Made by a program: the position numbers and the translations under genes | Assembly (NCBI GenBank): GCA_913062955.1 | Contig: CAJXZP010000010.1 | Coordinates: forward strand, 1 to 64,000 | DNA from: an uncultured Flavobacteriales bacterium | GTDB taxonomy: Bacteria; Bacteroidota; Bacteroidia; Flavobacteriales_G; Salibacteraceae | DNA: 64,000 nt | Reading direction: 5' to 3' | Shown: positions 6,744 through 50,525 of the stretch, piece by piece | Layout of the letters: the number at the start of each line of letters is the position of its first letter | Numbering within the stretch: position 1 is the first letter of the stretch | The notes under the pieces: generated by a model | What the model saw: the letters and a program-made list of their open reading frames with translations, nothing else | Told to the model about the DNA's origin: nothing | The model's database searches: none

Positions 6744-7697
6744 CTATTTTAATCCGATTTCTATTAGCCTTTCCGTTAAATAATCACCTGCACTAATATC
6801 ATCGTATTGTTTGGGATGATTTTCATCAATGGTTTCTGCTAAACAATTCAATGGCATTTCCGAAACCGGATGTAAGAAAAATGGAATAGAATATCTACTT
6901 GTTCCCATATTTTCGGCTGGTGGGTTAATTACTCGATGGGTGGTAGAGCGCAATTTATTATTCGTTAAACGTTGTAACATATCCCCAACGTTTACCACAA
7001 TATGGTCCTCAATTGCGGTGACGCTTTTCCACTCTCCTTGTTTATTTAATACTTGAAGTCCATCCGCAGAAGCACCAACCAGAAGAGTAATCAAATTGAT
7101 ATCTTCATGTTCACCCGCTCTTACGGCATCTGTTTTCAAGGTCTCTACAGGAGGGTAGTGAATAGGTCTAAGAATACTATTTCCATTGTGAACATATTTA
7201 TCAAAATAAAACTCGTCCAAACCCAAGTATAAGGCAATAGCTTGTAGCATTTTGGTACCCGTTGATTCCAGTGCTTGGTATGTTTTTTTACCTACGGATA
7301 GATACTCTGGTAGTTCTTCTACAGGTACATTATCTGGGTAGCTTGCTTTTCTTTGAGGATCATCGTCAACGAATTGACCAAAATGCCAAAATTCTTTCAA
7401 ATCACCTGCCGTTTTTCCTTTGGCGTGTTCTTTACCAAAAGAAGTGTATCCACGTTGTCCGGCTATTTCCGCAATTTCATATTTTTTCTTTATGTCCTTT
7501 GGTAAGGCAAAAAAACGTGCGTTATAGTCATATACCGTATCAATTAACTCCTTTGAAACCTGATGGTTTTTTAAAGCGACAAAACCAATTTCTTCGTATG
7601 CTTTACCTAGGTCCGCAATAAATTGTTTCTTTCTGTTTTCATCTCCCGATACAAAATCGGATAAGTCTACGGAAGGTATTCCTTGTGGTGTACTCAT
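6744..7697 (-). CDS. 2-oxoglutarate/Fe(II)-dependent oxygenase, isopenicillin N synthase family
   Basis: A 317-residue non-haem iron oxygenase. The metal triad is clear: H197 and D199 (GEHEDINLITLL) and H254 (STTHRVINPP). The 2-oxoglutarate-binding pair is R268/S270 (SRYSIPFFLHP). The N-terminal half carries the DIOX_N features 'IPSVDLSDF' and 'GFVALKNHQV'. Relatives hydroxylate or desaturate small molecules, but the substrate cannot be read from sequence. It sits between the M48 peptidase (11 bases upstream) and the YceI-like lipoprotein (20 bases downstream) in an apparent operon. Confidence 0.85.
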   Translation of the reverse strand: MSTPQGIPSVDLSDFVSGDENRKKQFIADLGKAYEEIGFVALKNHQVSKELIDTVYDYNARFFALPKDIKKKYEIAEIAGQRGYTSFGKEHAKGKTAGDLKEFWHFGQFVDDDPQRKASYPDNVPVEELPEYLSVGKKTYQALESTGTKMLQAIALYLGLDEFYFDKYVHNGNSILRPIHYPPVETLKTDAVRAGEHEDINLITLLVGASADGLQVLNKQGEWKSVTAIEDHIVVNVGDMLQRLTNNKLRSTTHRVINPPAENMGTSRYSIPFFLHPVSEMPLNCLAETIDENHPKQYDDISAGDYLTERLIEIGLK

Positions 7698-7708
7698 ATT
7701 TACGTGTA

Positions 7709-8512
7709 TTATGGTATGCTGTTTTGTAGAACGGTAAACTCTGGGTTTTCACCATATTCCGTTCGGTAACCAAATTTTTTGGCCCATTTTCGTATTCTAT
7801 ATATTCTATTTTCGGTATCTGGATGGGTACTAATGATCGGAGGTATACGAATATCTTTTCCACTTTTTGCTAATTCTTCAAAAAAGTCAGCCAAGGCTAG
7901 GGAAGAATAATAGTTCCCTGTTCCCATGTAAATAACTGATTTTTTATCCGCATGGGATTCTTGATCTCTTCCCATACCTAAACCTAAAATTTTGTTACCC
8001 ACTTCAACAGCAATAAAAACACCAAAAGAAGCTCCTGCAGCCGCAGCTCCTGCGATAATAATGGCTTGTCGACCCACACCACGCGTTAACTTCTTTACGG
8101 AATGTCGTAATTCTGCATGGGCTATTTCATGCCCAATAACGGCTGCCAACTGATCTTCATTTTTCGCCATTTTTATTAAACCCGTGTACACAAAAATGTA
8201 ACCTCCAGGGGTACAAAAAGCATTAATGATTTCATCGTCATGCACTATGGTTATGGAATCATAAGCAAATGTCCCTTTTTCCTTGATATCCGGTGATTCC
8301 AATATATTGTTAACTACCCGTTGTAATTGTGCATAAGCTATGGGGTGGTCCTTTTTACTCAGTAATGGATATTGTTTAGGGTTGGAGTGTATTTGATTAG
8401 AAGTAAGTGCTCCTAATTCCACATCCTTACTTTTAGGAATGGTTTTGTAACAGGAAGAAAAACTACAAGTAATTAAAAGACCTAAAATTGGAAGAAAACT
8501 TCGTAGACGCAT
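7709..8512 (-). CDS. M48 family metallopeptidase, lipoprotein
   Basis: A 267-residue envelope protease. The signal peptide ends in a lipobox (SFSSC, C21). The zinc site is H128-E-I-A-H132 in 'VIGHEIAHAELRH', and the third ligand is the Glu of 'GRDQESHADKKSV'. 'NAFCTPGGYIFVYTGLI' is the conserved M48 substrate-cleft strand. The family (BepA/LoiP-like) performs quality control of outer-membrane proteins. It heads a three-gene cluster (peptidase, oxygenase, YceI-like protein) separated by 11 and 20 bases. Confidence 0.9.
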   Translation of the reverse strand: MRLRSFLPILGLLITCSFSSCYKTIPKSKDVELGALTSNQIHSNPKQYPLLSKKDHPIAYAQLQRVVNNILESPDIKEKGTFAYDSITIVHDDEIINAFCTPGGYIFVYTGLIKMAKNEDQLAAVIGHEIAHAELRHSVKKLTRGVGRQAIIIAGAAAAGASFGVFIAVEVGNKILGLGMGRDQESHADKKSVIYMGTGNYYSSLALADFFEELAKSGKDIRIPPIISTHPDTENRIYRIRKWAKKFGYRTEYGENPEFTVLQNSIP

Positions 8513-22010: not shown

Positions 22011-23171
22011 TTAGTTTCTTAATTCCGTAGGCACTTCACCCGTTAAGGTTTCCATAAACAAAACAATACGCTCTATTTCCTCTGGAGTAAGTTCTTTATC
22101 TACTTGTACTTTAGCCATAATAGCAACGGATTCATGAATACTTTCCACACTACCATCATGAAAGTAAGGAGCCGTTTTTGAAATATTCCTTAATGAGGGT
22201 ACTTTAAATACATATTTATCTACTTCTTTACCCGTTACGTCAAAACGACCCAGGTCTATTTTTTTACTTTTGGTGTATTCCCAATAGTCGGCATGTAAAC
22301 CAAATTTTTGATACATACTACCTCCCAATAATGGTCCCATATGACAAGTGGTACATCCGGCTTCTATAAAGGTGTTTAAGCCTTCTTTTTCGGCTTCGTT
22401 TAAGGCTTGATTATTCCCATTCATATACGCATCAAACTTAGAGGGAGTGATTAATTTTCGTTCAAACGCAGCAATGGCTTTTTGCATGTTAGCAAAGGAA
22501 ATAGGGGTTTGATCTAGTGGGAATGCATCCTCAAATAAATCAATATATAAATCACTGTTTTCTAATCGATCTATCACATCCTCTTCGCTTGCCATGGCCA
22601 TTTCGTCTGGGTTTAATACCGGGACTCCCACTTGGGCTTCCACATCGGGTTCGCGACCATCCCAAAATTGGCTTAAATGAAGTGCTGCATTTAATGTTGT
22701 AGGGGTGTTACGTTCTCCAAATCTACCATCGTTACCCTCTGAAAAGGATTTATTATCTACGCCATAGGTGTTTAGGTTATGACATGTATTACAACTTTGA
22801 GTTTGGTTTTTAGACAGGATGTTATCAAAGTATAAGGTCTTTCCTAATATCACTTTCTCATCCGTAATTGGATTGTTCGAGTTTGCAGCTAATTGGGGTA
22901 AGGAACCAAAAAATACGCGTGCTTGTGCATCTAGTTCGGAGAAATCCTTTGGCGGGTTTTCCGAGTTTTGTATGGATGTATCGGTAATGGTAACCGTGGG
23001 TTTTAAAGGTTCAGTCACTATTGGTTCAGTCACTATTGGTTCAGTCACTATTGGTTCAGTCACTATTGGTTCAGTCACTATTGGTTCAGTGACTGTAGGT
23101 TTGGTTTTTTCACCGGTATCACAACTTGCTATGGCAAGGATAATCATGCTAAAAAAAAGTGCCTTTTTCAT
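22011..23171 (-). CDS. di-heme cytochrome c peroxidase family lipoprotein
   Basis: A 386-residue protein with a lipobox signal (AIASC, C17), then a proline/threonine-rich tether built from six (T)EPIV-type pentapeptides. The peroxidase body has two haem-binding CxxCH motifs, 'SCNTCHNLNTYGVDNKSFS' and 'GCTTCHMGPLLGGSMY', about 145 residues apart, and the family motifs 'LGKTLYFDNILSKNQTQSC' and 'KVPSLRNISKTAPYFHDGSV'. It probably reduces hydrogen peroxide, or performs MauG-like oxidations, at the cell envelope using electrons from small cytochromes. It appears monocistronic. Confidence 0.9.
   Translation of the reverse strand: MKKALFFSMIILAIASCDTGEKTKPTVTEPIVTEPIVTEPIVTEPIVTEPIVTEPLKPTVTITDTSIQNSENPPKDFSELDAQARVFFGSLPQLAANSNNPITDEKVILGKTLYFDNILSKNQTQSCNTCHNLNTYGVDNKSFSEGNDGRFGERNTPTTLNAALHLSQFWDGREPDVEAQVGVPVLNPDEMAMASEEDVIDRLENSDLYIDLFEDAFPLDQTPISFANMQKAIAAFERKLITPSKFDAYMNGNNQALNEAEKEGLNTFIEAGCTTCHMGPLLGGSMYQKFGLHADYWEYTKSKKIDLGRFDVTGKEVDKYVFKVPSLRNISKTAPYFHDGSVESIHESVAIMAKVQVDKELTPEEIERIVLFMETLTGEVPTELRN
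23008..23097. repeat. six 15-bp tandem repeats inside the peroxidase gene
   Basis: The unit ggttcagtcactatt is repeated head to tail, five near-identical copies and one diverged copy (ggttcagtgactgta). Being a multiple of three, gain or loss of units would keep the frame and change only the length of the linker between lipid anchor and haem domain. Confidence 0.9.
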
Positions 23172-40814: not shown

Positions 40815-42053
40815 ATGAATAAAATGAAAAATTATTTAGCTTTATTGGGTTTCTTGGTAACCCTTACTGTGGGTTATGGCCAGGATCCTAAATCGGATAT
40901 GTCGGATGTAGTCAAATATTTGGCGAGTGATAAATTAGAAGGTCGTGAAACGGGTACTAAAGCCGAGAAAGCCGCGGCTAAATATTTGGTAAAACAATTT
41001 AAGAAAATAGGGTTAGCTCCCAAAGGTGAAAAAGGGTTTTACCAAGATTTTACCTATACTCCAAAAGCGAATCCACATGGTTCGGCCGAGGATCAAGCCA
41101 AAGTGATGGATCCAATTACGGGGAGAAATGTCATTGGATATATTGACAATGATGCGGATTACACGATTATTATTGGGGCCCATTACGATCATTTGGGGTA
41201 CGGACACGAGGGTTCTCGTCATACGGGGGAAAAGGAAATTCATAACGGAGCTGATGACAATGCAAGTGGGGTAGCCATGATTTTGGAATTGGCGAAATAC
41301 CTAAAAGAGAACAATCCCAAACATAACTATGTGATTTTAGCCTTTTCGGGTGAAGAGAAAGGACTATGGGGATCTAACTATTTTATGAAGAACCCAACAA
41401 TTGATACATCGAAAATTTCGTATATGATCAATTTTGATATGGTAGGAAGATTATCTGCTTCGTACAAATTGGCGATTTATGGTACCGGAACGTCTCCCGT
41501 ATTTGATGAGGTATTGAAGAAAGCCAATGATCCCGTTAAGTTTCATTTGGTTAAGAAGGAATCGGGTGTAGGTCCTTCAGATCATACTTCGTTTTACTTG
41601 AAAGGATATCCAGTCCTCCATTTTTTTACAGGGCAACATGAAGATTACCACAAGCCAACGGATGATTTTGAAAAAATCAATTTTGAGGGAATGGTATCTA
41701 TTTTGGAATTTGTAGAGAACGTTATGAATCAATTGGAAGGAAATGGGAAATTGGAATTCCGTAAAACCAAAGATGCAGATTCAAAAAAAGCACCTAAATA
41801 CTCCGTAACTTTAGGGGTTGTACCGGATTATTTGTACGATGGAGTAGGTATGCGTATTGACGGTACAAGTCCGGATAGACCGGCAGAAATTGCGGGAATT
41901 AAAACCGGTGATGTGGTGATCAAAATGGGCAATATTGAGGTGCCAGATATGATGGGGTACATGAAGGCCTTAGGACAGTTTGAAAAAGGGCAAGAAACAG
42001 ATGTAATCGTGGTTAGGGATGGAAAAAAACTAACACTTCAAGTGACTTTCTAG
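40815..42053 (+). CDS. exported M28 family aminopeptidase with C-terminal PDZ domain
   Basis: A 412-residue protein with a signal peptide (cleavage near VGYGQ; the second methionine, 40824, is an alternative start). The di-zinc site is complete: 'GAHYDHLG' (His), 'NGADDNASG' (bridging Asp), 'FSGEEKGLWGS' (catalytic and metal Glu), 'NFDMVGR' (Asp) and 'QHEDYHKPTDD' (His). The last ~90 residues form a PDZ domain ('GMRIDGTSPDRPAEIAGIKTGDVVIKMG'). It probably trims peptides in the periplasm or outside the cell. It is transcribed alone, with a terminator following. Confidence 0.92.
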   Translation: MNKMKNYLALLGFLVTLTVGYGQDPKSDMSDVVKYLASDKLEGRETGTKAEKAAAKYLVKQFKKIGLAPKGEKGFYQDFTYTPKANPHGSAEDQAKVMDPITGRNVIGYIDNDADYTIIIGAHYDHLGYGHEGSRHTGEKEIHNGADDNASGVAMILELAKYLKENNPKHNYVILAFSGEEKGLWGSNYFMKNPTIDTSKISYMINFDMVGRLSASYKLAIYGTGTSPVFDEVLKKANDPVKFHLVKKESGVGPSDHTSFYLKGYPVLHFFTGQHEDYHKPTDDFEKINFEGMVSILEFVENVMNQLEGNGKLEFRKTKDADSKKAPKYSVTLGVVPDYLYDGVGMRIDGTSPDRPAEIAGIKTGDVVIKMGNIEVPDMMGYMKALGQFEKGQETDVIVVRDGKKLTLQVTF

Positions 42054-42077
42054 AAAAAAAATATTCAGATAGTTGGC

Positions 42078-42110
42078 AGCCCTGTTCACGTGAGTTGGCA
42101 GGGCTTTTTT
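42078..42110 (+). terminator. Rho-independent terminator
   Basis: Stem agccctg / cagggct around a 14-base loop that itself contains the palindrome tcacgtga, followed by six T. Confidence 0.75.
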
Positions 42111-42262
42111 GTTTCATTTGCTACCTTTTTAACATCTCCAATACTACTTTTCGCGAATAGGAATTTAAAGAGATCATTAAACGATCCTATTCCTTCTTGG
42201 GGGCTAAAACGTTAAGGTAATGGTTTTTTAGCTCGTCCCAAATGGTCAGGGTACGGTTAGGA

Positions 42263-44275
42263 TTAGTTCATTTTTGTAATCTCCTTTTTGAAATTTGATG
42301 AAATGGATTGAACAATTTTTTCGAGTTCTAAAATGTAACCTTTTAGTAGCTTCGGTTGGGGCTGTTTTGATTTAAACTTTTCAATAGATAGACATAATTC
42401 TTCGCCTTTAGTTATTCCTAGAATTCCAAAACTTGGTTTGATTTTATGGGTTAACTCAAATAATGGCTTCCATTCTTTTTTCTGTAGATGGAATTTCATC
42501 CGTTCAATATCACTTGGCGTTTTATCATTGAATAATTCTAACATCTTGATGATTAACTCTGTATTTCCGTTGGTTATAGATTTTACCTGTTTTAGCGAAT
42601 AGCTTACTTTAACCTTTTGGATGGGTTGGTTTACTGAAATTAATTGTTCTAGATTTAAAATTTCACCAATTTTGGTGTGTAAATCAATGGGTTCGAAGGG
42701 CTTGGTTATATACCCATTCATACCCACCTTATAACAGTTATTAATGTCTTCTTGAACCGTATTGGCGGATAATCCAATAATTGGAGTTTTACTCTTAAGA
42801 TCAGTTCTAATTTCTTGGGTTGCATCGAGTCCGTTTAAAACAGGCATCTGCATATCCATTAAAATAATGTCAAAATTTTCACTTTGTACTTTTTCCACTG
42901 CCTCCCTTCCATTAACTGCAATACTAACGACCGCTTTTTTTTGAGTTAATATTGTTTCTGCATAAAACCGGTTAATGGCATTGTCTTCCACCAGTAATAT
43001 TTTTACGGCTTTAAAATTGTAATCTATTGATTTTGGATCCTTCTTTTTAGTTTCTACTTCATTTGATTTTTTAAGTTTCAATTCAAAATAAAAACGAGTT
43101 CCTTTTCCTTCTTCTGTTTCTACATTAATTTTAGAATTGTAATTAGATACAATTTCTTGCGCAATAGTTAATCCAAGACCCGTACCGCCAAATTCTCTAG
43201 TAATTCCTTCATCCTCCTGCGTATACCCTTGGAATATTCTTTCTAACTTATCCTTTTTAATTCCCTTTCCGGAATCTGTAACTGAAACCTCAATTTTTTG
43301 ATAATTGGAATCTTCAGATTTTAACGCCACCCGAATTTCTACCGTTCCGGTTTCGGTAAACTTAATGGCATTGTTTACCAAGTTAATTATGACCTGTGAA
43401 ATTCGAAGTGGATCGCCAATACAATTAAAAATGTCTTCAGATACGAAATAAGATAATTCAAGATTTTTGTCTCGGGCCTGATATTTAAAACTGTGATAAA
43501 TATCTTCAATTATTTTGCGAATACTAAAGCTGATTTTTTCGAGTGAAAACTGATCACTTTTCAATTTTGAAAAATCAAGAATGTCATTTATTATTTGCAG
43601 TAAGGAATTGGAAGAAAATGCAACTGCTCTTAAATATTTTCGCTGCTCCGTATTTAATTCGGTGCCCTGAAGTAATTCTCCCATACCAATAATGGCATTT
43701 AAGGGGGTTCTTAATTCATGACTCATTTTTGCAAAAAAGGATTGTTGGTTTTGCTTTGCTTGTTTTGTTTCGGCTAAGGAAATTTCTAATTGATCCTTAT
43801 ATACTCGTAGTTTTTCGGCAATTCTTTTGGAATCGTTGAGAGATGACAGCTGCATCTGTAGGGTAAACAGAAACTGACTAATATTATCAAAAACGGCAAA
43901 ATCTCCGAGGGTTAAATCATAGCATTTTAGTTCTTCAAATGAATTGATTAATGGGCTTCCCAAAAAACAGAGTAAATTATACTTTTCATCATGAAATATT
44001 TGACCTCTAAATTTGTGTTTATGGTTCTGGATCGAGGTAAGAATAAATAAGGCGTTTTTTTGCCTTATGATATCCTTAAAACTGAATAAGTTAAAAGGCC
44101 TTTCAATGGAAAGTACAGATAAAAAATCGTCTCCCTTTGAAATGATTTTTAATTTGACCTGTGACCTACCCAAATTAACCACTTTCATGTTCTTATCTAC
44201 TAGAACATAAAATGGAAAAAGATCATTCATAAATGAATGATTTTCCAAAGGAGATATACTTATGTTGTTATCCAA
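42263..44275 (-). CDS. HNOBA-type hybrid sensor histidine kinase (HisKA-HATPase-REC-HPt)
   Basis: A 670-residue soluble kinase with no transmembrane segment. Residues ~15-140 begin 'FMNDLFPFYVLVDKNMKVVNLGRS', the pattern of HNOBA (haem-NO-binding-associated) domains, followed by a coiled coil (~145-178). HisKA has H186 in 'FAKMSHELRTPLNAIIGMGELL'. HATPase_c has N-box 'NLVNNAIKF', 'DSGKGI' and 'GGTGLGL'. The receiver (~424-540) has D474 in 'IILMDMQMPVLNG' and the conserved Lys in 'ITKPFEP'. A C-terminal HPt helix has H610 in 'FELTHKIKPSFGILG'. The full phosphorelay His-Asp-His is thus present. It is 5 bases downstream of the H-NOX gene, its probable sensor subunit. No output regulator is adjacent. 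Confidence 0.92.
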   Translation of the reverse strand: MDNNISISPLENHSFMNDLFPFYVLVDKNMKVVNLGRSQVKLKIISKGDDFLSVLSIERPFNLFSFKDIIRQKNALFILTSIQNHKHKFRGQIFHDEKYNLLCFLGSPLINSFEELKCYDLTLGDFAVFDNISQFLFTLQMQLSSLNDSKRIAEKLRVYKDQLEISLAETKQAKQNQQSFFAKMSHELRTPLNAIIGMGELLQGTELNTEQRKYLRAVAFSSNSLLQIINDILDFSKLKSDQFSLEKISFSIRKIIEDIYHSFKYQARDKNLELSYFVSEDIFNCIGDPLRISQVIINLVNNAIKFTETGTVEIRVALKSEDSNYQKIEVSVTDSGKGIKKDKLERIFQGYTQEDEGITREFGGTGLGLTIAQEIVSNYNSKINVETEEGKGTRFYFELKLKKSNEVETKKKDPKSIDYNFKAVKILLVEDNAINRFYAETILTQKKAVVSIAVNGREAVEKVQSENFDIILMDMQMPVLNGLDATQEIRTDLKSKTPIIGLSANTVQEDINNCYKVGMNGYITKPFEPIDLHTKIGEILNLEQLISVNQPIQKVKVSYSLKQVKSITNGNTELIIKMLELFNDKTPSDIERMKFHLQKKEWKPLFELTHKIKPSFGILGITKGEELCLSIEKFKSKQPQPKLLKGYILELEKIVQSISSNFKKEITKMN

Positions 44276-44280
44276 ATATT

Positions 44281-44826
44281 CTAGCTATAAGTAACAAGGT
44301 ATTCGTGACTATTTTCCTTGTTTTCAATGTTTCCAATATAATTCACTTCAACTTCAATGTTAAAATGTTCTCCTAACCCAAAAAGTAATCCTTTAACAAA
44401 GGTGGCCAAACCGGGTCTATGGGAATGGTATTCAAACTTAAATGTTTTGGAATCAATTTCTTCACAGAAAAAGGAAGGTGGTTTCAATTCCGTATAAGAT
44501 TGCGCTACATGCGCGTGCATGTTATTCAAATTATTCAGAAATTCGGGGAAGGTACGTCCCGCTAAATCTAGTAATTTGGAGTATCCTTCAATCATCGTAA
44601 ATTTGATCCAGTACCTTCCAAAGGCTTCCAGTATGTCGTTGGCATCCATATGAAGATGTTCCGATGCTGCGCCCACAATATTGTAGGTAATGTCATCCGG
44701 ATAGGGTTGCATGCTGACAAAAGCTTCTTCCCCTACCCCTGCTTTTTTTTTAATGATTCTCCATGTTTCTTCCCCGTGCCCTTCTATCACAAAATCTTGA
44801 GCTGCTTTGTTAACTAATCCGTACAT
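44281..44826 (-). CDS. H-NOX haem protein (nitric oxide sensor)
   Basis: A 181-residue haem-NO/oxygen-binding (H-NOX) domain, full length with nothing fused. The N-terminus MYGLVNKAAQDFVIEGHG is typical. The proximal haem ligand is most probably H104 in 'LNNLNNMHAHV'. The propionate-binding YxSxR motif is Y133-H-S-H-R137. The position matching the distal tyrosine of oxygen-binding H-NOX proteins appears to be Thr142, so selectivity for NO over O2 is predicted. In characterised bacteria a stand-alone H-NOX controls a neighbouring kinase or cyclase, and here the HNOBA hybrid kinase follows at once. The genes form an operon. Confidence 0.92.
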   Translation of the reverse strand: MYGLVNKAAQDFVIEGHGEETWRIIKKKAGVGEEAFVSMQPYPDDITYNIVGAASEHLHMDANDILEAFGRYWIKFTMIEGYSKLLDLAGRTFPEFLNNLNNMHAHVAQSYTELKPPSFFCEEIDSKTFKFEYHSHRPGLATFVKGLLFGLGEHFNIEVEVNYIGNIENKENSHEYLVTYS

Positions 44827-45162
44827 ACTTTTCGTATTTTAGGTGTATTAATTTTTCTAAAGAATTCAATTAGGCTTTAATGAGTCTATGCTATGTTTTG
44901 TTCCAGGTTGTAGAGTCATTGCTGTTGCATAGACTCTCTCCCAAATCATGGCTTAATTGGATTTTCTATTTTGGTTTATTTCCTAAAGTTAAGATTAAGA
45001 GTTATATATAGCTAAAAAATCACAGAAAATTTATTCATTTGGATTTCGTATGGATAATATGGATACGGTGGATATGGAATGTATACCCATATGGGAGCTG
45101 CGGGCTAAGGCTTTTTGGGTATTGAAAAAATAGTTTTTTTTTAAATGTGCAAATGGTGTTTT
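44827..45162. other. H-NOX upstream region
   Basis: 336 bases between the H-NOX start and the decayed gene. It contains the long inverted repeat and A/T-rich sequence. A 27-codon frame (45050-45133, plus strand) lacks a ribosome-binding site or recognisable content and is not called. Confidence 0.4.
44882..44936. repeat. 10-bp inverted repeat upstream of the H-NOX operon
   Basis: Perfect arms gagtctatgc (44882-44891) and gcatagactc (44927-44936) are separated by 35 bases, 56-110 bases upstream of the H-NOX ATG. It could be a regulator site or an RNA stem in the leader. No exact TAnnTTTG box was found for this operon. Confidence 0.5.
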
Positions 45163-45515
45163 TTAATATTCCGTAAGGTTCTTCTCTTTATCCTTATTGA
45201 AATAGATATAAATGGAATACGTACTAATTCCAAATATTTTATGCCCATACCAGTATCGACTCTGTAAATTGAACTGGTTTACGTTTTGGATTGGAGAAAT
45301 ATTTGAATCTTCCAATACTTCGGTTTTAGTTTTTACTCCGAGCCACCTTCTGTTGTTTTTGTAGGATGAAATAGAGTTCCAACCGAGAATATTAAACTAA
45401 GTCAAAATCAACGGAAAATTGAAATAGTTTTTTGGAGAGCAATTCAAAATAGGGGGTATATAGGAGGTTTAAAATTTCCAATGGAACAAATTCCTTTTGG
45501 TTTATTCCGATATCC
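45163..45515 (-). pseudogene. decayed gene fragment, frameshifted
   Basis: Two overlapping minus-strand frames join into one plausible protein of ~115 residues. The upstream frame reads '...TKDIGINQKEFVPLEIL' and 'NLLYTPYFELLSKKLFQFSVDFDLV', then stops at 45392. The downstream frame picks up with 'FNILGWNSISSYKNN', 'RRWLGVKTKTEVLEDSN', 'NVNQFNLQSRYWYGHKIF' and 'GISTYSIYIYFNKDKEKN' and stops at 45163. The switch is near 45390-45400. No start codon fits and the 5' part runs into the GNAT gene's stop, so the fragment is truncated as well as frameshifted. The parent family is not recognised. Confidence 0.5.
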
Positions 45516-46253
45516 TTAGTTACTGGGGCGTTTTAAGGTGTAATTTTTAATGGTGAATTGTTCTTCGAATCCCAACTTTAGGTACAACGCTTTTCCCATA
45601 TTGGAAGCTTGTAGCGTTATTAGTTGGTTCTGGGTTTGGAGTGACTCATTAATGATAAGCTTCATTATTTGCTCGGCATATCCCTTCCGTCTTTGTTCAG
45701 GAATAATGCCCACCGAGTGAATACCCGAAGCACCAGTTGAGGTGTGTAAGATACCTGTTCCTACCGCTACTTTTCCATGAAATGCTAAATAGAAGGTCGT
45801 GTTTTTATGTGAATTGGATATTAAAATGGGATGAATTAAATAGCCAAAGGATTTACGAAAGAGATCCGACCAAAGTTGTGCTTGCTTTTGGGTGGTTACT
45901 TTTTTCAAATTTAAAGTTCCTGGTACTGGAAATACGTGTTTTCTATTTAACGACATTCCTATTTGTTCAAACTTTAATGTAAATCCATTTTTCGCTAAGA
46001 TTTCCAATGAATTATTTGGATATATATCCCAAATAGGAAGGGTTAAGTTTGTTAATGAGGAAGCCATTTTAGCCTTTATCATGGCAATATTTTGAGGCGA
46101 AATTCCTTGATTTAACCACAATCTATTGGGCCATTCCGATTTTTCAATAAGACTGTAACGATATTCCTTTTCCATAAAAAATGAATCGACAGGTTCGCTC
46201 ACCGTTTGCCAAAGGGAGGTTAAATTTTCTATGTTTAGCTTTATTTTTTTCAT
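45516..46253 (-). CDS. GNAT family N-acetyltransferase
   Basis: A 245-residue acetyltransferase. The C-terminal half is the GNAT fold: 'TTFYLAFHGKVAVGTGILHTS', 'GIHSVGIIPEQRRKGYAEQIMKLII' (acetyl-CoA motif A with R-R-K-G-Y-A) and 'NMGKALYLKLGFEEQFTIKNYTLKR'. The N-terminal half is a diverged second domain. The substrate is unknown. Its ATG overlaps the end of the YdcZ-type transporter by four bases (ATGA), so the two are translationally coupled and may act on related small molecules, for example acetylation plus export. Confidence 0.85.
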   Translation of the reverse strand: MKKIKLNIENLTSLWQTVSEPVDSFFMEKEYRYSLIEKSEWPNRLWLNQGISPQNIAMIKAKMASSLTNLTLPIWDIYPNNSLEILAKNGFTLKFEQIGMSLNRKHVFPVPGTLNLKKVTTQKQAQLWSDLFRKSFGYLIHPILISNSHKNTTFYLAFHGKVAVGTGILHTSTGASGIHSVGIIPEQRRKGYAEQIMKLIINESLQTQNQLITLQASNMGKALYLKLGFEEQFTIKNYTLKRPSN

Positions 46254-46699
46254 TTGATGTTTAGTAATATGATTCCCAGTATCATAGATGATATTCCTAT
46301 CGTTTTTTTAATCGTGATGGGTTCTACAGGTAAGTTGATCCAACCATAATTTCCGGCTATTACCGCAAAGATAAGTTGCCCACAAAGACCTATAGAGATC
46401 ATGGTAGAAATTCCGAGTTTCGGAATGGTGTAATAATATAAACTTATTCCGATCACACTAAAAAAACCACCTGTAAACCAGAGGTAAAATGGAATTCCTT
46501 TTACGTTTAAAAGAGTAGGGAACGATTTAAAATTAATTAATACAAAGAGCAACGCAAATAAGGTGCTACTAAAAAAGGCAATTAAACTGGCTAAAAATGG
46601 GTTCTTTAATAAAACCCCCAAATACGCATTTAATCCACCTTGTAGGGCTAGAAAAATACCGCCTATAAAAGCTAAACCTACTAATCCATAATTATTCAT
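46250..46699 (-). CDS. YdcZ/DUF606-type DMT family transporter
   Basis: A 149-residue membrane protein with about five hydrophobic helices, the size of a half-length DMT protein. 'GIFLALQGGLNAYLGVLLKNPFLASLIAFFSSTLFAL' and 'GQLIFAVIAGNYGWINLPVEPITIKKTIGISSMILGIILL' match the YdcZ (DUF606) subgroup. These proteins probably work as dimers of opposite topology, and the substrate is not known. It is the first gene of a two-gene unit with the GNAT enzyme, preceded by an unusually structured leader. Confidence 0.85.
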   Translation of the reverse strand: MNNYGLVGLAFIGGIFLALQGGLNAYLGVLLKNPFLASLIAFFSSTLFALLFVLINFKSFPTLLNVKGIPFYLWFTGGFFSVIGISLYYYTIPKLGISTMISIGLCGQLIFAVIAGNYGWINLPVEPITIKKTIGISSMILGIILLNIK

Positions 46700-46716
46700 A
46701 CGTTCTAAATTATGGG

Positions 46717-46826
46717 CCGTTTACTTTAGGGTTGAAACATTTTTTATAGTGGCGGATCTCCACCCTAAACCGTTTAATATTTTCATGCTTTTTCTTTGTT
46801 TGGTTGGATACCGCAAAATTAAACGG
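46717..46826 (-). ncRNA. candidate structured leader (riboswitch-like) of the YdcZ-GNAT operon
   Basis: In the transcript order the leader has CCGTTTAAT (46826-46818), its perfect 9-base complement ATTAAACGG (46778-46770), then an 8-bp stem TTTAGGGT / ACCCTAAA (46769-46762 with 46732-46725) enclosing a TGG/CCA hairpin, and then a second TAAACGG (46723-46717) 17 bases before the start codon. The first CCGTTTA can pair with either copy of TAAACGG, so two folds exclude each other. I do not recognise a known riboswitch class. Confidence 0.4.
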
Positions 46827-47032
46827 AGAAGCTATAGTGTGCCTTTACATATGTTGATTCTGGATTTATTCCGTGTTTTTTTTCTTGTTCTAGTCTATGG
46901 GGTAAGGGAATGTGTTGATTTGTAGCTAGGTATGCTTTGGTCAATATTGGGTTCTTAATTCAGTAGTACTGGCTTTTAAAGCCTAGGGACAGACTATTGG
47001 CTACTGAAGGGTTTTATAGGAATAGGATAGGG
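46827..47032. other. intergenic region with a further inverted repeat
   Basis: Between the structured leader and the M16 terminator. It contains an 8-bp inverted repeat (ttcagtag 46959-46966 / ctactgaa 47001-47008) that encloses the near-palindrome ggcttttaaagcc. No open frame or RNA family is recognised. Confidence 0.4.
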
Positions 47033-47068
47033 CATAAAAAAGGCCGGGAAGTAAACTACCCGGCCTTT
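47033..47068 (-). terminator. Rho-independent terminator
   Basis: A 10-bp perfect stem (aaaggccggg / cccggccttt) with a 10-base loop and a minus-strand T run, 17 bases after the M16-like gene. Confidence 0.9.
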
Positions 47069-47084
47069 CTATTACATGTATTTT

Positions 47085-49166
47085 TTATTTGAATAAAGAA
47101 TCAGAGATCTTTCCTCCAAACTTAATTTCTTCCACTTTTAGTTCCATAATTTGACCGGCATTGTTCTCAATGATCATAGACGGATACATGATTCCATCTT
47201 GAGATTTATACTCACTATAAGTGCTTGTACTCGTTGATGGCCCCTTTGGTGAATCTGTGGTTTTTATAGATGATACCTTTAATCCGGTTTTTACATCGTA
47301 ATAATTATACGATAGATTTCCTTCTTTATCGGTGATTTCCATTTTATAGGCTTTAGAACCATTTACCTCTTCAATCTGTATCAATTTGGTATTTGCTTCC
47401 GTGTAGGTTAATTCATCAAAAATGACCGCATCCATAAGGTAGGAAGCTATTTCTTCTTCCGTTAATTCTTTTTCGCCCATCATTCCCGAGGATTTCCCGG
47501 TGAAACCATTAATCTTAATGGTTTGAAGATTCATTTCGCCACTTTTAACAGTCATTAAAAGTTTGTCGCTTCCTTTATTTACCATGCGTATAGCTAAAGG
47601 CATTCCTTGCATAGAACTAGACATTGTAGCATCTTTTGTCGTAATAACTTTTAAGGCTTCGGTACCGCCCATTACGGTTAGATAGACCTCCAAAACGGTG
47701 GTGGAAGTTACTCCAGCTGGAATGGGTTCTGCATCTGAAACTGGATTTCCATAGGCGTCATAGTAATTTACTTTTCCCGCATTTGTAAATTTCTTAAGAG
47801 ATGAAGCTACTTCTTCTTTATTCCCTACAATGACGATATGTGCATTGTTTGGACGTAAATATTTCTTAGCCATTCTTAATACATCTTCTGAGGTTACGGC
47901 TTGAAGTTTTTCAAGGTAAGTCGCATAATAATCAGCAGGTAAATTGTATCGAGCGGTGTTTAATGCAAAACGAGCTACGGTTTGAGAACTTTCTAAGGAA
48001 CGAGCAAAACCTCCATTCATATAGTTTTTTACATTTTGTAATTCCTCTGCATCTACTAATTCGTTGGTTAAACGAGTCATTTCGAATAAGAATTCAGTTA
48101 CCGCACTATCGGTAACTTCATTTCTAACTTCTGCACCAGCGTAGAAATCGCCTACTAATTCATCCTTAGATAAACCGGAGTAGGCTCCATAGGTATACGC
48201 TTTGTCTTCACGAATGTTTTGAATCAATCTAGCCATGAAACCTGCACTACCTAAAATCGAATTCATTACACTTGCCGCAATTGCATCTTCCGATCCGGGT
48301 TGTAAATTAATCGGATAAACAATACTAATGGTCGACTGAACCGCTCCTGGCTTGTTTACAAAATCAACCTGAGTGGCTGATGGAGCAATTGGCATCTCAA
48401 ATTTGTGCGTAGGAACATCGCCTTTGGTCCAAGAACCAAAGGTTTTTTCCACGAGGGGTAAAGCTTCCTTTTTAGAAATATCTCCAACGATAATTAAATA
48501 AGAAACGTTTGGTTTGAAATATGTATTGTAAAATGATTTACACATTTCAGCCGTGATTCCTTCTACAGATCCTCCTGTTTCAACTTCACCGTAAGGATGT
48601 GATTGACCAAAAGTAACTACCGCACTTACGTTTTTTGACATAGCAGCTGGGTCAGATGCATTGGCCATTAACCCCGATAATGTTTGTTTTTTCATTTTAG
48701 CTAACTCTTCCTCTGAGAATGTCGGATGAAGAATAACATCACTTAATAAACTCAATGTGGTTTCTTTATGCTTTGTTAACGAAGATGCAAATCCACCATA
48801 AGAGGAAGTAGAAACATGCGCTCCAATAAAATCCACTTGTTCGTCAATTTGTGTTTTTGTACGGGTTGTTGTACCGGTCATTAAAGCACTACCCATTAAA
48901 CTTTGCATTCCTGCAAAATCTCCTTCAGAAACCACTCCACGATTGACGTACAATTGCCAAGATACTTTTGGTGTTTTGTGATTTTCTACTAAGAATACTT
49001 GCAGTCCGTTTGCTAAGGTAAAAGTTTCGTAATCTCCTAATTGAATTTTTGGAGCTGGTCCGGGAGCCGGAGCTTTGGTTCTGTCAATTTGCGCTACACC
49101 AACGGTGGTCAACAATAGCGAAAACATTATTAAAACTAAATTTTTCATGGTCATTGTCTTTTTCAT
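47085..49166 (-). CDS. M16 peptidase-like protein, non-catalytic subunit, with extra C-terminal domain
   Basis: A 693-residue exported protein (signal peptide ending near VGVAQ). Residues ~35-470 form the two M16 half-domains ('YETFTLANGLQVFLVENHKTPKVS', 'VSYLIIVGDISKKEALPLVEKTF', 'EDKAYTYGAYSG'). The zinc motif HxxEH is absent; that position reads 'GDFAGMQSLMGSALMTGT'. The missing site marks it as the partner of the active M16 peptidase encoded 16 bases upstream. About 220 extra residues at the C-terminus form a beta-rich domain resembling LolA/outer-membrane lipoprotein folds ('NGFTGKSSGMMGEKELTEEEIASYLMDA'), not usual in M16 proteins. Confidence 0.88.
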   Translation of the reverse strand: MKKTMTMKNLVLIMFSLLLTTVGVAQIDRTKAPAPGPAPKIQLGDYETFTLANGLQVFLVENHKTPKVSWQLYVNRGVVSEGDFAGMQSLMGSALMTGTTTRTKTQIDEQVDFIGAHVSTSSYGGFASSLTKHKETTLSLLSDVILHPTFSEEELAKMKKQTLSGLMANASDPAAMSKNVSAVVTFGQSHPYGEVETGGSVEGITAEMCKSFYNTYFKPNVSYLIIVGDISKKEALPLVEKTFGSWTKGDVPTHKFEMPIAPSATQVDFVNKPGAVQSTISIVYPINLQPGSEDAIAASVMNSILGSAGFMARLIQNIREDKAYTYGAYSGLSKDELVGDFYAGAEVRNEVTDSAVTEFLFEMTRLTNELVDAEELQNVKNYMNGGFARSLESSQTVARFALNTARYNLPADYYATYLEKLQAVTSEDVLRMAKKYLRPNNAHIVIVGNKEEVASSLKKFTNAGKVNYYDAYGNPVSDAEPIPAGVTSTTVLEVYLTVMGGTEALKVITTKDATMSSSMQGMPLAIRMVNKGSDKLLMTVKSGEMNLQTIKINGFTGKSSGMMGEKELTEEEIASYLMDAVIFDELTYTEANTKLIQIEEVNGSKAYKMEITDKEGNLSYNYYDVKTGLKVSSIKTTDSPKGPSTSTSTYSEYKSQDGIMYPSMIIENNAGQIMELKVEEIKFGGKISDSLFK

Positions 49167-49182
49167 CGTTCTAAATATTTAA

Positions 49183-50493
49183 CTATTGTTTTGGTAAATA
49201 ATAAAGAACTACACTGTTATTTACAGTTAAGTATTTTGTAGCTACAGCCATGATATCCTCACGAGTAACTGCTCTATATTTTTTGATTTCTGTATTGATT
49301 AATTTGGTACTCCCATAATACATATAGTATTGTGCCAAATTCTCCGCAATTCCAGCTTGAGAAGAATATCCTCCAACTACATCATTTTCAATTTGATTTT
49401 GAAGTTTTTGAAATTCGTTTTCGGTAATTAATTGGGTTTGAAGTTTTGCCACTTCATCCATAATTGAACTTTCTACTTCATTTGGTTGAACTCCTTGGTT
49501 CGCAATAGAAAGAGCAATGAAAATCCCTGGGTCCTCTAATGGAAAAGGAAATGCACCAACGTAAACCGCTTTTTGCTCTTCTTCCACAATACGTTTGTTC
49601 AATCTTGAACTCGATCCTTGAGATAAAATCATACTTAACATGTCCATTGCGTAGGCATCATCTGTACCCAAAGCAGGGGAGTGAAACGCCATCATTACCC
49701 CTGGTAATTGAATGTTGTCAAAAATAGTATCTCTTACTTGAGTGGTTTTTACTGGCTCCACAATACTTGGACGTACAATGTCCGCTCCTTTTGGAATCTC
49801 AGAAAAATAGGCTGAAATTAGTTTTTTTGTTGCTTTGATATCTAAATCACCTGCAATAGATAGACACGCGTTATTAGGGATGTAAAATTTCTTGTAAAAG
49901 TTAACGTAATCCGCTTCTTCAGCAGCATCCAAATCATCCATTGATCCTATTGGAGTCCATTGGTAAGGGTGAACAGTGTACGCTCTTTTCATAATTTCTG
50001 CTTGAAAAGAACCATAAGGTTGGTTATCCACACGTTGTCTTTTTTCTTCTTTTACCACCTCTCTTTGAGTGGCAATACCTATAGAATCAACTTTGGCATG
50101 CATCATTCTTTCAGATTCTAACCAAATCCCTAACTCCAATTGGTTGGAAGGTAATAAATCGTAATAAAAAGTCCGATCTTGAGACGTGTTGGCGTTAAGT
50201 GCTCCTCCGGCTTTTTCTACAAAATTGGAATACTCACCTCTTGGAATGTTAGCAGACCCTTCAAACATTAGGTGTTCGAAAAAGTGTGCAAATCCAGTAC
50301 GTGATGGATCTTCATTTTTTGATCCTACGTGGTACATTACCGAAACAGCTACAATTGGTGTAGAGTGGTCTTCATGTAAAATTACATGTAAACCATTCGG
50401 TAGGTCGTACTCTACGTACTTTATTTTTTGTTGAGCTTGGGAAACGCTCATTCCTGCAACCAGCAGGGTTAACCCGGTGAGTAATCCTTTCAT
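49183..50493 (-). CDS. M16 family zinc peptidase, catalytic subunit
   Basis: A 436-residue exported peptidase with a signal peptide (cleavage near VSQAQ). The inverted zinc motif is H70-F-F-E73-H74 in 'RTGFAHFFEHLMFEGS'. The distal Glu is in the following helix region ('EVVKEEKRQRVDNQPYG'). The second half has the 'LPGVMMAFHSPALGTDDAYAMDML' and 'GSSSRLNKRIVEEEQKAVYVG' motifs. It probably degrades peptides as a heterodimer with the downstream inactive homologue. A longer frame begins at a TTG; ATG 50493 is chosen because it starts the signal peptide and a TAnnTTTG box lies at 50518-50525. Confidence 0.92.
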   Translation of the reverse strand: MKGLLTGLTLLVAGMSVSQAQQKIKYVEYDLPNGLHVILHEDHSTPIVAVSVMYHVGSKNEDPSRTGFAHFFEHLMFEGSANIPRGEYSNFVEKAGGALNANTSQDRTFYYDLLPSNQLELGIWLESERMMHAKVDSIGIATQREVVKEEKRQRVDNQPYGSFQAEIMKRAYTVHPYQWTPIGSMDDLDAAEEADYVNFYKKFYIPNNACLSIAGDLDIKATKKLISAYFSEIPKGADIVRPSIVEPVKTTQVRDTIFDNIQLPGVMMAFHSPALGTDDAYAMDMLSMILSQGSSSRLNKRIVEEEQKAVYVGAFPFPLEDPGIFIALSIANQGVQPNEVESSIMDEVAKLQTQLITENEFQKLQNQIENDVVGGYSSQAGIAENLAQYYMYYGSTKLINTEIKKYRAVTREDIMAVATKYLTVNNSVVLYYLPKQ

Positions 50494-50517
50494 TATTACG
50501 TTGTTTATATTTTTGCC

Positions 50518-50525
50518 CAAATTTA
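50518..50525 (-). promoter_or_regulatory. -7 promoter element of the M16 operon
   Basis: The minus strand reads taaatttg, an exact TAnnTTTG, ending 24 bases before the ATG at 50493. Confidence 0.55.

Follow-up and report, generated by a model that had tools for sequence, protein, structure and literature searches.

Does the H-NOX protein encoded next to a histidine kinase gene in a Bacteroidota genome control that kinase as the H-NOX domain controls soluble guanylate cyclase (sGC), and where would the signal go? The two genes lie in the window, which here means the whole stretch of 64,000 nucleotides analysed (positions 1 to 64,000 of contig CAJXZP010000010.1). The host genome (G000) is 3.9 Mb in size, consists of 131 contigs, and is 96% complete; Flavobacteriales are among its closest named relatives.

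The locus and its surroundings

Both ORFs of the initial annotation were confirmed (Table 1). They lie on the same strand, with 5 bases between the stop codon of the H-NOX gene and the start of the kinase gene. The kinase ORF begins with TTG, and relatives L211 and L213 have a TTG at the equivalent position, counted from the HNOBA domain. Upstream of the H-NOX gene there is a perfect inverted repeat, which may be an operator or an RNA stem; it is absent from the locus of every other genome compared. A pattern search of the same upstream region for sigma-54 and Bacteroidota-type promoter motifs gave none.

Table 1. Features of the H-NOX/kinase locus (positions in the window)
Feature	Position	Strand	Details
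H-NOX gene	44281..44826	-	181 aa; ORF confirmed
Proximal His104 of H-NOX	44515-44517 (codon)	-	
Kinase gene	42263..44275	-	670 aa; TTG start; ORF confirmed
HNOBA (H-NOXA, PAS-like) head	43826..44230	-	residues 16-150; PF07701, E 5.4e-21
Continuous helix (predicted structure)	43670..43885	-	residues 131-202; block pLDDT 58-91
HisKA	43556..43747	-	75 bits; phospho-acceptor His186 (43718-43720) in HELRTPL
HATPase_c	43070..43417	-	PF02518, E 9e-29, 100.6 bits
Receiver domain (Response_reg)	42668..43000	-	PF00072, E 6e-28, 97.6 bits; Asp474 (42854-42856) in MDMQMP
HPt domain	42314..42544	-	PF01627, E 5.8e-7, 30.1 bits (cut-off 24.6); His610 (42446-42448) in LTHKIKPSF
Perfect 10-bp inverted repeat	44882..44936		GAGTCTATGC/GCATAGACTC; arms separated by 35 nt; within the gap of 689 bp preceding H-NOX

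The M28 and M16 peptidase blocks that flank the locus (window 40815-50520) are conserved in two genomes of the same genus (G001 and G002), where they are separated by about 220 kb or fall on different contigs. Thus, a simple empty site in these sister species was ruled out. No H-NOX, kinase, GNAT, or DMT gene was found beside the blocks in G001 and G002. With the flanking blocks apart and the intervening genes missing, an insertion and a rearrangement are indistinguishable. The kinase gene is AT-richer than its surroundings (GC content 32.1% against 37.3% for the window), and no HNOBA-type H-NOX was found in the two same-genus genomes sampled. These two observations would fit a recent arrival but do not prove it. 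Elsewhere in the window, a cytochrome-c-peroxidase-like ORF (22011-23171) was seen by eye to carry a short tandem VTEPI repeat close to its N-terminus.

A stand-alone H-NOX with an NO-type pocket

The first gene was initially read as a stand-alone H-NOX with a proximal H104 and a Y133-x-S-x-R137 motif, and this reading holds. The profile search found a full-length HNOB domain (PF07700, E 1.2e-51, 175.3 bits against a cut-off of 25.5, profile positions 1-162 of 163). H104, Y133, S135, and R137 are all in place; Y133, S135, and R137 make up the haem-propionate motif of H-NOX, and H104, Y133, and R137 are invariant across 26 aligned sequences. H104 aligns with His105 of the Nostoc H-NOX. The AlphaFold2 model (pLDDT 92) has the H-NOX fold: it matches the Nostoc H-NOX with a VIA-align Z of 27-28 over 180 residues, the values for 2o09 being Z 27.4 and rmsd 1.8. 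The Nostoc protein alr2278, about 47% identical, is the closest solved relative.

The initial annotation took Thr142 to occupy the position of the distal tyrosine of O2-binding members and suggested NO-selectivity. That position is uncertain in the alignment to the Nostoc H-NOX, in which Thr142 stands opposite Pro143 and Phe143 opposite Met144; the absence of a tyrosine from the distal pocket stands. Since neither candidate residue is tyrosine, and since the protein has Ala9 and Ile74 where the O2-binding H-NOX has Trp9 and Asn74 (PMC7356049), the suggestion of NO-selectivity survives. The comparison thus supports an apolar, NO-type pocket without a distal tyrosine, as in the NO-selective subgroup. 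The protein would be expected to load haem and to respond to NO.

A hybrid kinase with an HNOBA head

The N-terminus of the kinase had been described as an HNOBA domain, and the profile check bore this out with 75.5 bits against a cut-off of 23.4; the head searched alone matched PF07701 at E 1.5e-22. In a Foldseek search, the head (model of residues 1-262, mean pLDDT 82) matched 2P04/2P08 and the alpha and beta chains of sGC, and the sequence search agreed. In the predicted structure, one continuous helix runs from the HNOBA domain through a coiled coil into the first HisKA helix. The remaining domains named in the initial annotation all scored above their curated cut-offs, with H186, D474, and H610 in place. 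The protein is therefore a soluble kinase of the architecture HNOBA-coiled coil-HisKA-HATPase-REC-HPt with an intact His-Asp-His set, and phosphate could be passed along these three residues to a regulator. Single NCBIfam equivalogs (BarA, TorS, and others) scored far under their cut-offs and were rejected.

Co-inheritance of H-NOX and HNOBA

Is the pairing common? I analysed 396 genomes of the same class. H-NOX exceeded the cut-off in 80 of them, and a true N-terminal HNOBA match was found in a smaller set. In many genomes, HNOBA matches were restricted to profile positions of about 164-216; these were set aside as generic coiled coil. The loci around the H-NOX and HNOBA genes were annotated with profiles made for this analysis.

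On the tree of the class-sample H-NOX sequences, there are two clades. An HNOBA protein adjoins the H-NOX gene in 34 of the 36 members of one clade and in none of the 46 members of the other, counts that are not a random sample because the loci were collected with H-NOX or HNOBA queries. The label of an HNOBA neighbour changes 3 times on this tree against 26.5 changes expected by shuffling. Both exceptions in the coupled clade are near contig ends; L114 has a partial next ORF with an apparent HNOBA start (by eye), and no HNOBA was seen in L110. In named genomes, an HNOBA protein lies next door in 76 of the nearest 80 H-NOX loci; most of these loci are cyanobacterial, and the others come from Bacteroidota or, one each, from further phyla. 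These results show that H-NOX and HNOBA are co-inherited, and they support the coupling of the two in the initial annotation. Its further suggestion of an undescribed circuit is not supported for the pair itself, since pairs of this kind are widespread and already known from Nostoc. H-NOX identity correlates with HNOBA identity at a Spearman coefficient of 0.44 and with kinase-core identity at 0.21, the 95% interval of the difference just including zero.

HNOBA does not require H-NOX. HNOBA kinases occur without any HNOBA-type H-NOX in 11 sampled genomes, and in 10 of these no H-NOX of any kind was found. The kinases of these 10 genomes (L155, L157-L166) include several in which the C-terminal half of HNOBA is gone.

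Other arrangements were seen among the collected loci. In a Glaciecola metagenome bin (L278:6001-8440), the H-NOX adjoins an HNOBA protein that reads by eye as GGDEF-EAL, a c-di-GMP enzyme. Thus, the HNOBA head meets different effectors. In Robiginitalea aestuariiviva (L213:6557-9057), a single H-NOX is followed by a tandem pair of small HNOBA kinases. Two species of the same genus (L040, about 7433-7975; L041, about 7445-7985) carry an H-NOX gene decayed by in-frame stops and frameshifts between a sigma-54 regulator and a hybrid kinase whose reading frames are still open.

The kinase is a chimera

The two parts of the window kinase have different relatives. Its H-NOX partner is 57-81% identical to the H-NOX proteins of loci L211-L217. 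The kinases next to those proteins are small, eight non-hybrid proteins of 385-400 aa, and their heads share 36-52% identity with the HNOBA head of the window kinase. The HNOBA tree places the head in a clade with the small kinases (L211-L217 and L097; SH-aLRT 96.8). Beyond about residue 172, in contrast, the window kinase shares 40-46% identity with hybrid kinases but no more than 26-29% with the small ones. The kinase-core tree groups the window core with the hybrid kinases (support 100/100), and its placement with the small kinases was rejected (AU p 2.8e-9). Thus, the window kinase is a chimera whose head and core differ in ancestry. Most simply, these trees can be read as an exchange in which the original core gave way to a REC-HPt hybrid core and the head facing H-NOX was kept; the window kinase would then have arisen by fusion of such a core to the HNOBA head from a small, non-hybrid kinase of an H-NOX pair. 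The sensor pair is of a kind usual in its clade; what is unusual for a head of this type is the relay core, together with the probable output.

A candidate output regulator on another contig

The initial annotation placed the output regulator elsewhere in the genome. Indeed, no response regulator adjoins the window pair, and the best candidate is a single-copy sigma-54 (NtrC-type) regulator on contig C14 (G000 C14:11712-13052). In six relatives (L029, L032, L102, L108, L115, and L124), a sigma-54 regulator lies directly, or one small gene, upstream of an H-NOX gene and an HNOBA hybrid kinase gene. The C14 protein is 54-60% identical to these six regulators, while its paralogues reach at most 45%; it is their single clear ortholog in the host. 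The Asp54 site and the GAFTGA motif are present, and sigma-54 is encoded in the genome. Across the collected loci, the kinase bears an HPt domain in 19 of 20 loci with such a regulator and in 23 of 78 without (p 7e-8, a value that overstates the association because the loci are related and not independent).

The regulator is not universal. In a survey of 28 genomes, most of them picked for a kinase without an adjacent copy, 10, including the host, gave a match at the E<=1e-100 level, and in some of them the identity was no higher than 45-46%. Three relatives share the exact window architecture. Two of them (L106 and L123) have a LytTR regulator as a neighbour; none was seen in the third (L101), whose genome (G204) has no close match to the sigma-54 regulator. 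From the sequence comparison, it is plausible, at somewhat less than even odds, that the C14 regulator is the target of the window relay.

The C14 regulator has a setting of its own. It lies upstream of a second H-NOX gene, which belongs to a different clade from the window H-NOX. Downstream of this H-NOX gene are a PAS-PAS-HisKA-HATPase-REC-HPt kinase, a receiver protein, and, by profile, Poly_export and GNVR polysaccharide genes; several relatives, L029, L032, and L102 among them, have genes of matching size and order at this place. A third kinase, on contig C50 (L007:4886-11524), has 2212 aa and the architecture HNOBA-GAF-eight PAS-HisKA-HATPase-REC-HPt with a full HNOBA domain. No H-NOX was found in the surrounding 14 kb, and the window H-NOX possibly serves this kinase in trans. 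Only 4 HPt matches were found in the host genome, 3 of them in these H-NOX/HNOBA-type kinases (window, C14, and C50).

Proposed mechanism and alternatives

In H-NOX proteins and sGC, NO binds the ferrous haem, the bond to the proximal histidine breaks, and the two H-NOX subdomains shift. By analogy, the window H-NOX would sense NO as a soluble protein with ferrous haem and would dock in trans on the kinase, at its HNOBA (PAS) head and coiled coil. The pair would then be equivalent to an sGC beta chain split into two polypeptides, with a kinase in place of the cyclase. Binding of NO would break the Fe-His104 bond and alter the shape of the H-NOX; the HNOBA domain and the long coiled-coil/HisKA helix (residues 131-202) would receive this motion and switch the autophosphorylation of His186. 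The phosphate would move from His186 to Asp474, to His610 of the HPt domain, and on to a regulator encoded elsewhere, for which the C14 sigma-54 regulator is the likeliest candidate. With a second H-NOX system and genes for polysaccharide export beside this regulator, exopolysaccharide or attachment would be the readout. The docking surface is a predicted one, and the control by NO could be of either sign, activation or inhibition. Taken as a whole, an NO-sensing H-NOX docked on the HNOBA head and driving a relay to a regulator elsewhere appears to be the best explanation, with a probability of roughly 60%; its central part, the control of the kinase by H-NOX through HNOBA, is the more secure and may be called quite probable.

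How firmly do the data point to this reading at each step? At the sensor, it is most improbable that the H-NOX detects O2 or the redox state instead of NO. Some H-NOX proteins do bind O2 (PMC8738867), but nothing direct favours this for the window protein, which lacks a tyrosine at either candidate distal position and the Trp9/Asn74 pair (PMC7356049, PMC8738867), and which is of the stand-alone Nostoc type without a chemoreceptor fusion. At the head, HNOBA might serve mainly for dimerisation or as a sensory PAS domain independent of H-NOX, with H-NOX being a weak modulator or serving several kinases, for example that on C50 too. Dimerisation of H-NOXA domains is known for sGC and for the Nostoc kinase (PMC2828450, PMC2904703), 11 sampled genomes have HNOBA kinases without an HNOBA-type H-NOX, and the C50 kinase keeps a full HNOBA domain with no H-NOX nearby. 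However, the H-NOX clades are split almost perfectly by HNOBA adjacency, the window head was retained with a different core, and the C-terminal half is missing from several orphan HNOBA domains, as if a constraint had been lifted. I therefore regard an H-NOX-independent head as improbable.

At the output, the sensor and relay could remain as proposed while the phosphate goes to a LytTR-type response regulator, most likely that at G000 C3:31388-31657 (L181), rather than to the sigma-54 regulator. A REC-LytTR regulator lies directly downstream in the two relatives of exact window architecture named above and in L030, and L181 is the best match of these regulators among the host LytTR proteins. 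Yet its identity of 34-36% is low for an ortholog, the genome has 11 LytTR proteins, L181 overlaps the end of another gene (359 aa), and orthology is much clearer for the sigma-54 regulator. A LytTR output is thus unlikely, if less so than an H-NOX-independent head. The sigma-54 output remains the preferred one, and it invites a broader conjecture, which as a whole I consider doubtful: HNOBA might be an exchangeable H-NOX receiver that evolution has moved between effector cores, and two or three relay kinases (window, C14, and C50) might converge on one sigma-54 exopolysaccharide regulator in an NO-to-matrix circuit of Bacteroidota without c-di-GMP.

Comparison with known systems

The nearest known system is that of Nostoc (alr2278 H-NOX, PDB 2O09; kinase HNOBA domain of N. 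punctiforme, PDB 2P04/2P08, structure described in PMC2828450 and PMC2904703). It shares with the window the order of H-NOX followed by an HNOBA kinase, an H-NOX similar over its whole length, and a head of the same PAS fold. The Nostoc kinases found here are mostly non-hybrid HNOBA-HATPase proteins of about 480 aa, whereas the window kinase is hybrid. A second Nostoc type, HNOBA-PAS-HisKA-HATPase-REC-HPt (L235, L250, L252, L279, and L288), carries REC-HPt as well, so that the window kinase is not alone in having REC-HPt built in. HNOB and HNOBA were reportedly named jointly by Iyer et al. in 2003 (cited in PMC2904703), from sGC and bacterial proteins. In animal sGC (H-NOX - H-NOXA/PAS - coiled coil - cyclase), the beta chain is 33-39% identical to the window H-NOX, and the window head and coiled coil match by sequence and fold; the window, by contrast, encodes the sensor and the effector as two proteins, the latter being a histidine kinase.

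Kinases of the Shewanella HnoK and Vibrio HqsK type are not known to have an HNOBA domain, whereas the window kinase has both an HNOBA head and a built-in HPt domain. In these Proteobacterial systems, a stand-alone H-NOX likewise controls a soluble kinase and a phosphorelay; HqsK passes phosphate to the phosphotransfer protein LuxU, and the outputs are c-di-GMP enzymes or quorum sensing (PMC8846402, PMC8738867, PMC6759604). The H-NOX of Shewanella oneidensis shares only about 20% identity with the window protein, and the solved H-NOX of the flavobacterium Kordia algicida (PDB 6BDD) shares 20%. In a literature search that covered few subscription journals, no H-NOX/HNOBA relay of Bacteroidota and no sigma-54 output was found, which is weak evidence of absence. 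Beyond the known pair, the additions are the two-clade split of H-NOX, the chimeric kinase, and the candidate sigma-54 output.

According to a 2022 review (PMC8738867), no H-NOX had been solved at high resolution in complex with its signalling partner. The window pair is small and soluble and consists of two proteins, with an sGC-like head on a core of other origin, and is convenient for mapping the H-NOX/HNOBA interface. It also offers a system for asking how one sensor drives unrelated effectors. While the Proteobacterial outputs described to date are mostly c-di-GMP or quorum sensing, the locus provides a testable candidate for how Bacteroidota might convert NO into a change of surface polysaccharide.
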